NCBI GenBank assembly: GCA_027682925.1
Contig: JAQCYU010000021.1
Location: 1-41,408, forward strand
Source: Coriobacteriaceae bacterium AF45-21
GTDB taxonomy: Bacteria > Actinomycetota > Coriobacteriia > Coriobacteriales > Coriobacteriaceae
Direction: 5' to 3'
DNA length: 41,408 nucleotides
Part shown: in pieces, positions 21,908 to 25,800 of the stretch
Position numbering within the stretch: position 1 is the stretch's first letter
How the letters are laid out: each line of letters opens with the position of its first letter
The notes under the pieces: model-generated
Told to the model about the DNA's origin: nothing
The model's database searches: none
What the model saw: the letters and a program-made list of their open reading frames with translations, nothing else
Position numbers and translations under genes: made by a program

Positions 21908-21914
21908 CCTGCCA

Positions 21915-21953
21915 AAACCACCACAAAGGGGACAGGCACCTTTGTGGTGGTTT
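21915..21953. repeat. Palindromic intergenic repeat, family A copy 2
   Basis: Perfect 15-bp arms aaaccaccacaaagg and cctttgtggtggttt flank ggacaggca. It shares the GGGGACAGGCACC core with other copies and lies between the convergent GntR and glmS genes. Confidence 0.85.
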
Positions 21954-21959
21954 CTCCGC

Positions 21960-22002
21960 ACAAAAAGGCCCGGCTCCGCCTGATGACGCGGAGTCGGGCC
22001 TT
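21960..22002 (-). terminator. Rho-independent terminator of glmS
   Basis: The stem aaggcccggctccgc/gcggagtcgggcctt (21965-22002) is followed on the minus strand by tttttgtg, 26 bases past the glmS stop. Confidence 0.88.
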
Positions 22003-22027
22003 GGTCGTTAGAACGGCGGAACATCCG

Positions 22028-23875
<1,848 letters not shown>

Positions 23876-23985
23876 AGGATAAATCCCTTCGCTCGCGTGA
23901 CTGCAAGACGTCCACGCACAGGGGGCGCTGAGACGTATAACGTTCGAGTATTGTACTCACGCAAGCGCAAGCTGATATACCAGAA

Positions 23986-24009
23986 GTGGTATCTCAACTT
24001 AGATACCAC
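23986..24009. promoter_or_regulatory. Perfect 9-bp inverted repeat upstream of glmS
   Basis: gtggtatct (23986-23994) and agataccac (24001-24009) form a perfect inverted repeat with a 6-base spacer, about 110 bases upstream of glmS. A TACAAT on the minus strand about 35 bases downstream could be a -10 box. This is a candidate repressor or activator site, with the regulator unknown. Confidence 0.5.
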
Positions 24010-24028
24010 CCGATGCACACATGCCCAG

Positions 24029-24300
24029 CCGGTCCAAACCACCACGAAGGGGACAGGCACCTTTGTGGTGGTTTGGACCGGGGCGGCGGCTATCCCGGCG
24101 AAAGATCTCAATCTGTAACATCTGGGCCGCAATAAGCCGGCTTAGTGTTACAGATCGAGACATTACGGTTCGGCCCCAGCACTATGTCTCGATCCGTAAC
24201 AGGTAGAGCCGGTTTTGCCGTCCAGATGTTACAGATCGAGACAATTGAAGGCCCGGGCGTCTCAAACCACCACAAAGGTACCTGTCCCCTTCGTGGTGGT
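24029..24300. repeat. Composite palindromic element: inverted family A copies around four 17-bp motifs
   Basis: The left end (24029-24081) is a family A palindrome with 22-bp arms. The right end (24266-24300) is another family A copy in the opposite orientation. Between them the 17-mer tgttacagatcgagaca occurs four times in alternating orientation: 24104-24120 (-), 24146-24162 (+), 24185-24201 (-) and 24227-24243 (+), with starts about 40 bp apart. The whole block is an imperfect inverted repeat centred near 24173. No gene is present. Confidence 0.85.
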
Positions 24301-24327
24301 CGCGCTGGCAACGGCGTTTCCGCAGAT

Positions 24328-24368
24328 AAAACCTACCAAAATAAACCTGTCCCTAATTGGCAGGTTTT
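24328..24368. repeat. Palindromic intergenic repeat, family A copy 5
   Basis: Arms aaacctaccaaaat and aattggcaggttt flank aaacctgtccct. With its left flank gcgtttccgcagat it matches the inverted copy at 27516-27570 almost base for base. Confidence 0.75.
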
Positions 24369-24432
24369 GACACCCCAGGGGCGGGCGATGCTACAATCTG
24401 GCTTGTACTTGAAACGCATCAAAGGGGCCGCT

Positions 24433-25566
24433 ATGGCAAAGGTAAAAATCAGCGACGTCGCGCGCGAGGCAGGGGTCTCGCTGGGCACGGTATCCAACGC
24501 GCTCAACCACCCCGAAAAGTTGCGCCCCGAAACCCTTAAGCTCATCAACGAGACCATTAATCGCCTTGGCTACCTGCCCAACCAAAGCGCCCGTCAGCTC
24601 GCGGGCGGCACCACCAAGTCCTTTGGCCTGGTCCTTCCCCGTCTCGACCACGGCTTTTCGCTCCAGATTGCCAGCGGTGCCCACAACGAGGCACGCAAGC
24701 ACGGCTATGACTTGCTCATCGCCAATGCCGATAACGACGACATTCTCGAGGATCATTACCTGCGCTATTTTATGGGCACACAGATGTCCGGCGTCATGGT
24801 TCAGCCCATGGCGTCCCCCGACTGGCACCCCGCCATGGCCAAGATGCCCGTGCCGATCGTCCATCTGGACATCCACTGCTCCGAGCCCGGTTATTACGTG
24901 GCTGCCGACAACGAGGCACAAGGCCGCATTATCGCCGAGCTCGCCGTTGCCCGTGGCGCACGCCATATCACCGTTGTGGGCAGAGCGGCATTTATGCAGC
25001 TCACTTTGCGCGTACTTGGCATCCATAAGGCCCTCGCCCTGCATCCCGATATCAAGATCGAAGTCATCGACGCCGGCGAATGGAATACCGCTGCCGACGG
25101 CTACGGCATCGGTGCCCAAATCGCTGAGCGCCCCGCGGACGAGCGCCCCGACTTCGTGGTCGGCCTGACCGACGTATTGGCCTCGGGCGTTATCTCGGCG
25201 CTGACCGACAAAGGCATCTCCGTCCCCGAGCAGGTTCGCGTGGCCGGATGCGACGGCAACCCACTCGCTTGGAGCGGGGCGGTCCCGCTCACCACGGTAG
25301 CACCCCCAGGCTACGAGATTGGCCGCAAGGGCGTTCAATTGCTCATGGAGCAAATCGAGAACAAGGCGCCGGCGAAGACAAAGCATGTCCGCATCGGCTC
25401 TGCCGCGCGCACCGTCACCGCGGTCACGGCCATCGAGGACATCAACCGTCAGGAAATCGTGCGTCCCTTCTTGCTCGAGCGCGTAAGCACCCAAATTGCC
25501 AAGCCGCATCCGACGGGCCAACCCATAGTCCCGACAACCGACATCAACCTGGGCGCCTACCTGTAA
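24433..25566 (+). CDS. LacI-family transcriptional regulator
   Basis: A 377-residue sugar-type repressor. The N-terminal LacI helix-turn-helix is KISDVAREAGVSLGTVSNALNHPEKLRPETL with hinge YLPNQSARQLAGG. A periplasmic-binding-protein-like effector domain follows (FGLVLPRLDHGF, GVMVQPMAS, TVVGRAA, GLTDVLASGVISALTDKG, VRVAGCDGNPLAWSG, ITT-like TTVAPPGYEIG). The C-terminus is about 30 residues longer than usual. The start at 24433 has AAAGGGG seven bases upstream. No sugar genes lie immediately next to it, so the regulon is not evident. Confidence 0.93.
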   Translation: MAKVKISDVAREAGVSLGTVSNALNHPEKLRPETLKLINETINRLGYLPNQSARQLAGGTTKSFGLVLPRLDHGFSLQIASGAHNEARKHGYDLLIANADNDDILEDHYLRYFMGTQMSGVMVQPMASPDWHPAMAKMPVPIVHLDIHCSEPGYYVAADNEAQGRIIAELAVARGARHITVVGRAAFMQLTLRVLGIHKALALHPDIKIEVIDAGEWNTAADGYGIGAQIAERPADERPDFVVGLTDVLASGVISALTDKGISVPEQVRVAGCDGNPLAWSGAVPLTTVAPPGYEIGRKGVQLLMEQIENKAPAKTKHVRIGSAARTVTAVTAIEDINRQEIVRPFLLERVSTQIAKPHPTGQPIVPTTDINLGAYL

Positions 25567-25567
25567 A

Positions 25568-25608
25568 AAAAACGCCGCAACGGAAACAGCCCCGCTGCGG
25601 CGTTTTTG
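25568..25608 (+). terminator. Rho-independent terminator of the LacI gene
   Basis: aacgccgcaacgg (25571-25583) pairs with ccgctgcggcgtt (25592-25604), followed by tttt. The A-run on the left also allows function on the other strand. The 190 bases up to the HAD gene contain an AT-rich stretch and nothing else I can name. Confidence 0.85.
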
Positions 25609-25800
25609 CTGACCCCACGGGCCTTCCCCGTTTAGCCGAACCTGCGGCTACGGATTTTTATGGAATGTAATCCATTTTTCATTAGCTTTTTTGCAAAAAT
25701 GTATTCAATTCCATTTTTTAGAACAGTGCCTCCGCGCAGGCGCCGTTACCGTCACCGTCCTGCGGGATCGGGCGCGGGGCATGGCGACTCGCGGCAAACG

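Follow-up and report, generated by a model that had tools for sequence, protein, structure and literature searches.

The block of alternating repeats between glmS and a LacI-family gene in the window (a stretch of 41,408 nucleotides from Coriobacteriaceae bacterium AF45-21) is a two-unit member of a family of intergenic arrays of the Collinsella aerofaciens group; C. aerofaciens is a common human gut bacterium. The reading that we favour, with moderate confidence, is that the arrays are binding sites of a putative protein, read as duplex DNA, and probably also joints at which strains lose or gain repeat units and gene modules. Judged from their sequences, the 17-bp sites are likely to be bound by such a protein, and recombination at the arrays is probably the cause of the differences between strains in repeat units and in whole genes. 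The anatomy and spacing of the arrays, their common positions, their conservation, the near absence of covariation, the junctions at the arms and the single-array alleles of modules are direct observations. The arrays point to a putative DNA-binding protein that would have as many as 79 sites in a genome when one mismatch is allowed, and they are concrete places to look for exchange of gene modules among strains.

The four 17-mers in alternating orientation reported by the initial annotation were recovered at 24104 (−), 24146 (+), 24185 (−) and 24227 (+), with 3, 0, 1 and 0 mismatches, respectively; the copies are thus not equal, the first being the worst. The regular order with starts about 40 bp apart held as well, but the natural unit measures 59 bp and is made of two inverted 17-mers, the second starting exactly 42 bp after the first; the block consists of two such units with a 22-bp linker (Table 1). 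In 100 shuffles of the window the 17-mer gave a mean of 0.06 matches and never more than 1, and the whole unit (arm-N25-arm, up to 3 mismatches), which is found twice in the window, did not occur in 100 shuffles; chance is therefore excluded for the block pattern. The two halves had been called inverted copies of each other; their mirror symmetry is real but only partial, covering 27 nt at 89%, and in the orthologue of the nearest genome (G001) the mirror match on the reverse strand is about 76% over query positions 22–157. The capping by two inverted palindromes of a second family, A, was borne out, the 38-nt arms of both copies being 97% complementary, and the domains of the two neighbouring genes confirmed the placement between divergent glmS and LacI-family genes.

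Table 1. Features of the glmS–lacI block in the window, and array-flanked gene modules that have a single-array allele in other strains
Feature	Position or size	Strand	Remarks
glmS, left neighbour, divergent	22028..23875	-	domains: glutamine amidotransferase and two SIS stretches
Left A palindrome (REP-like)	24029..24081		arms lengthened by inverted copy of host flank CCGGTCC
Unit 1	24104..24162		arm 24104-24120, 25-nt loop, arm 24146-24162
Linker between units	24163..24184		22 nt
Unit 2	24185..24243		arm 24185-24201, 25-nt loop, arm 24227-24243
Right A palindrome	24263..24300		inverted relative to left A copy
LacI-family regulator gene, right neighbour	24433..25566	+	
AAA-ATPase gene module	1.3 kb		in L166, L186; missing in L013, L039, L190
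FHA/kinase operon	3.4 kb		in L144, L162, L203, L228; missing only in G001 (L023, L024, L142)
LacI-bearing module	about 4.9 kb		in L184; missing in L209, L231
CAP-domain gene, 1115 codons	3.6 kb		in L220; missing in L146, L189, L208, L217

Other repeats were also seen in the window. An inverted repeat, GTGGTATCT-CAACTT-AGATACCAC, lies upstream of glmS at 23986-24009, is present in similar forms in other Collinsella glmS-lacI spacers, and looks like a GntR-type operator. A further A palindrome is found at 21914-21954, between the end of a GntR/FCD gene and the end of glmS, and positions 98-213 hold 2.1 copies of a tandem repeat with a 55-bp unit.

When the search was extended to related genomes, as had been proposed, the block proved to be multicopy and conserved rather than unique. 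It matches 15 of 39 relatives, all 15 from the same genus (two of them with only two matches), and G001 carries 51 17-mer sites at no more than one mismatch, against 0 for the reversed control. At the same threshold, 22 of 43 genus genomes contain 33–79 arm sites and the other 21 contain 0–3, 18 of the latter holding none; the reversed control gave 0 throughout. A strict unit pattern retrieved 109 stretches from the GTDB representatives, all 109 in Collinsella records, and in one scan of viral contigs for phage carriage it retrieved none. We found no description of the array family in the literature on palindromic repeats of Collinsella and Coriobacteriia, as far as our partial coverage, without preprints, extends. 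Collinsella RNA candidates upstream of L7/L12, described in the part of PMC8040213 that we drew on, seem to be unrelated to the arrays.

The 162 arrays that are distinct in sequence when taken with 15-nt flanks (427 units) sort into 20 groups of matching flanks, 17 of which have at least two members; some groups contain both arrays of one module. Various genes adjoin the other arrays (dxs, Nramp, an RF3-like GTPase, glycogen phosphorylase and a Clp ATPase, with Nramp flanked by arrays on both sides), and by mechanical ORF calls they may be convergent, divergent or co-directional. A bias towards origin or terminus was considered and rejected, since the largest array-free stretch matches, by a rough estimate, the chance expectation. 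In G024 and G014 this stretch contains the nominal terminus, placed half a genome away from dnaA, which is expected by chance because the clusters are so few. A role in chromosome structure has no positional support from the arrays.

The 162 arrays hold one (19 arrays), two (57), three (59), four (21), five (3) or six (3) units, and the geometry of the unit is strict: the loop is 25 nt long in 418 of the 427 units (26 in 7 and 24 in 2), and the linkers measure 21 nt in 169 cases, 22 in 87 and 20 in 9. A raw orientation scan of 163 arrays found perfect alternation from '−' to '+' in 142, and an extra weak match or a site that is missing or cut in the remaining 21. The conserved site, TCTYRATCTGTAACA, is not palindromic, and the oriented unit has the consensus tgTCTCgATCTGTAACA.cTag..g.c.AAA.cgg.tCTA..TGTTACAGATcGAGACa. 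Loops run in both directions (201 forward and 217 reverse among 418 units), mixed within arrays. The loop centre and the positions ±10 and ±30/31 are almost always A or T; a 10-bp A/T period gave no dominant peak, and the phasing is suggestive only.

Conservation was measured in 683 orthologue pairs aligned through their flanks (flank identity 0.70–0.985). Changes per site amount to 0.028 in the arm core, as compared with 0.145 in the flanks and 0.196 in the variable loop, and to 0.098 at AAA, 0.138 at the outer arm edge, 0.146 at TAG/CTA and 0.241 at arm positions 6/7, next to which the core positions change at only 0.01–0.07; TAG/CTA is thus kept no better than the flank. These pairs are mutually dependent and the 17 flank groups are the safer count: the arm core rate lies below both flank and loop in all 17, and positions 6/7 exceed the core rate in 15 of them. 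Units were detected by arm similarity, asked of one partner per pair only, so that decayed units are missed. Since positions 6/7 are free between conserved neighbours, homogenisation of the arms, or mere gene conversion, is a poor account of this pattern, and recognition of specific bases is a better one. The substitution pattern thus points to base-specific contacts at the arm.

The same units could instead belong to a REPIN/BIME-type family, with inverted doublets that a REP-associated tyrosine transposase (RAYT) copies throughout the genome, a possibility that we consider unlikely. The array units do have two conserved inverted ends, a less conserved spacer and a clustered, tandem arrangement, as described for REPINs in the part of PMC3116915 that we drew on. 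Of 24 genus genomes, 22 carry Y1_Tnp genes, and the companion A palindrome resembles a RAYT-type REP, its half-stem AGGGACAGGCACC lying inverted on both sides of a Y1_Tnp gene in L073. However, no 17-mer (at up to 3 mismatches) was present in the 30 Y1_Tnp loci examined out of 50 matches listed, a set in which two loci are cut by contig ends and which lies outside the window's own genome, and Y1_Tnp is also found in genomes without arrays. On these grounds Y1_Tnp was rejected as the partner of the arrays. There is also little of the inter-locus resemblance that recent copying to new loci would leave: loops from different loci have a mean identity of 0.508, as compared with 0.501 for loops simulated by independent draws from the position table. 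Pairs with at least 0.8 identity make up 0.245% of the observed and 0.091% of the simulated set, a small excess that may reflect old relatedness, and no clear recent jump of an array between loci was seen in this comparison. Dead copies, moreover, would not be expected to keep their arm core conserved in place. The data give no support to an active MITE or REPIN, and from the earlier suggestion of a mobile MITE or BIME-like element only the BIME-like anatomy (alternating, dispersed, intergenic and multicopy) stands. The arrays occupy few common chromosomal places, and the terminal repeats with direct target duplication at an empty site that define a MITE were not visible at glmS-lacI, the single site inspected.

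Empty sites, which the initial annotation had advised looking for, do exist. At glmS-lacI, three of 13 close genomes (G001, G018 and G019) have the order A-array-A; the other 10 have no 17-mer there and A half-stems in all 10, the spacer sequence having been inspected in nine (without L099). Ten more distant loci retrieved with the lacI query (L104-L113) contain neither array nor A half-stem, a glmS start beside a lacI-like gene being recognised by eye in 7 of them. Where the array is present, the outer palindrome on the side of glmS is bordered by a copy of its own host flank in inverted orientation, which reaches 7–8 bp (8–9 by another count) beyond the A core. Among 54 distinct A palindromes only 3 show this copy, all from filled glmS-lacI sites (the window's being identical to that of G001); one of the remainder has a flank copy of 4 bp and 50 have 0–2. 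Such a copy would fit a fold-back copying event at the A hairpin during arrival of the array, and loss of the array from the array-free close genomes is a possible alternative to arrival. The array at this site differs between strains as one block bounded by A palindromes, so exchange here probably went through these palindromes and not through the arms. Across the family, 157 arrays have enough flank to be judged, and 47 of these have an A half-stem no more than 80 bp away (28 left, 29 right and 10 both). This is the case in only 9 of the 20 groups; A is thus a companion and not part of the unit.

A few further observations concern these palindromes and spacers. Distances from A to the array edge are often near 10, 20 or 30 bp, and values of 5–7, 18, 27–28 and 69 also occur. 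Near position 1358 of L096 and L097, the loop of an A palindrome has opposite orientations in the two strains. In L106 (G021, another Collinsella species), positions 1105-1321 hold an unrelated TTGCTAAGCA array, its copies in either orientation and mostly spaced by about 30 bp, upstream of a lacI-like gene whose left neighbour does not look like glmS. The glmS-lacI spacer of L105 (G016) has two copies of a ATGTCCCAAAAAGGG...TGGGACAT palindrome upstream of the lacI-like gene.

Returning to the arrays as binding sites, the putative protein would bind through two paired subunits separated by about four helical turns, the central A-tract may help the DNA to bend, and recombination between arms, whether by RecA, by slippage or by an enzyme, would cause the rearrangements. 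These steps could even be joined into one Collinsella DNA-binding and recombination system, in which a protein pair reads the two arms, with starts 42 bp apart, and bends the 25-bp spacer, allowing arrays to exchange entire gene modules. We regard this as quite unlikely; if true, it would be a chromosomal cassette system without an integron.

Five array-flanked modules have a single-array allele in other strains, a presence and absence of genes bounded by repeats as in the neisserial intergenic mosaic elements (NIME). The first module contains gene X, which encodes a 347-aa protein and is hugged by arrays on both sides (coordinates 1343-2386 in L163 and 15039-16080 in L228). Its product has only a sub-threshold DUF559 match (E 0.024), with no PDB match up to E 1 and no NCBIfam match. 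The amidohydrolase gene neighbouring this locus is present in 22 of 22 array-bearing genomes, and X is at the locus in 19 of them, cut by the contig end in G001 and G053 and frameshifted in G024. The three genomes without X (G009, G010 and G014) keep a single array of 1–2 units in its place, and the G010 allele, judged against the filled alleles of other strains, joins the left-array loop to the right-array arm end and flank inside an arm. With X missing from 3 of 22 array-bearing genomes and frameshifted in another, and with Nramp flanked in a similar manner, X was rejected as a necessary partner of the arrays.

For the four further modules (Table 1), the interior DNA has no match in the single-array alleles, except for the LacI one, with paralogous matches of 68–70%. 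The end of the FHA/kinase operon is carried by L146, L189, L208, L217 and L220. In L166, the left array's final unit and the 25 nt following it are found again, without any change, where the AAA module ends on the opposite side. For every module the single-array alleles are unpolarised as to gain or loss. Separately, two repeated genes at G024:C1:77544 and G024:C1:910324, with weak matches to DnaA-type ATPases, lie about 310–320 bp from array sites and are IS-like by copy number.

Rearrangements within arrays were checked by comparing 182 distinct arrays all against all, with segments matched at 84% identity. Of the arm adjacencies, 2955 were kept and 99 (48 of them distinct) were disrupted although the two neighbours persisted; none of the loops was a chimera. 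In a looser test at 80% identity, segments with both neighbours conserved comprised 594 loops that were alike and 108 that differed, and 435 linkers that were alike and 98 that differed, 2 linkers looking chimeric; thus replacement of a single segment, or its divergence, occurs too. One loop in L181 lies in reverse orientation at an unchanged position; the inversion is exact in comparison with three arrays and holds at 80% identity or more with four others.

Such data could also be taken for a dedicated site-specific recombination system, integron- or dRS3-like, whose arms are the crossover sites that exchange modules, and the 48 distinct junctions at arms, the inverted L181 loop, the modules with single-array alleles and the dRS3 precedent (in the part of PMC3898611 consulted) all speak for it. 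We nevertheless find it highly doubtful. The same junctions are expected from ordinary recombination, since the arms are the main shared homology, and crossovers were read closely only at gene X. TCTAGA stands at either end of the inverted L181 loop, and the breakpoints may therefore lie there instead of in the arms. Furthermore, the family search, which was for Y1_Tnp, identified no recombinase, and the 17-mer itself is non-palindromic.

Whether the arms also act as a hairpin was judged from 374 distinct units, in which positions 7/53 are occupied by G-C in 125, A-C in 92, A-T in 87 and G-T in 68. The arms hardly covary as a hairpin, and since the common 7/53 variants go together only weakly, there is no strong demand for one. 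Symmetric loop positions are less complementary than expected, because the loops carry direction. A structured RNA or terminator transcribed from the spacer, the large structured RNA of the earlier proposal, is accordingly extremely improbable: the block does fold very stably as single-stranded DNA (z = −16.4), a plain result of its inverted arms, but the arms show few signs of compensatory changes, the loops are anti-complementary, Rfam at gathering scores gave no match in 22000-25700 of the window, and arrays lie between genes of all relative orientations.

Taken together, among known systems the arrays share with REPINs and BIMEs the inverted doublets of a conserved 16–17-mer around a less conserved spacer, also clustered, and differ from them in sitting at shared loci with little or no copying between loci, with hardly any arm covariation and with the 17-mer beside none of the Y1_Tnp genes examined. 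Our best reading by analogy is that they work most like the NIME/dRS3 arrays of Neisseria, without being members of that family. In the parts of PMC3898611 and PMC9778887 that we drew on, NIME are intergenic arrays of short repeats separated by other sequence, for which exchange at adjacent loci has been suggested, and identical dRS3 repeats are suggested as the site of pilC1 integration or deletion; the Collinsella arrays are likewise intergenic, consist of short repeated sites and show gene presence and absence at them. As given there, dRS3 is a 20-bp repeat with inverted ends, ATTCCC-N8-GGGAAT, and its RS partners are families of 30–160 bp, whereas the Collinsella site does not fit the dRS3 pattern, being a non-palindromic 17-mer in strict pairs around 25-nt locus-specific loops. 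The copy numbers also differ, with 646–725 dRS3 in the meningococcal genomes tabulated in the part of PMC3898611 consulted, as compared with the 33–79 sites of the array-bearing Collinsella genomes.
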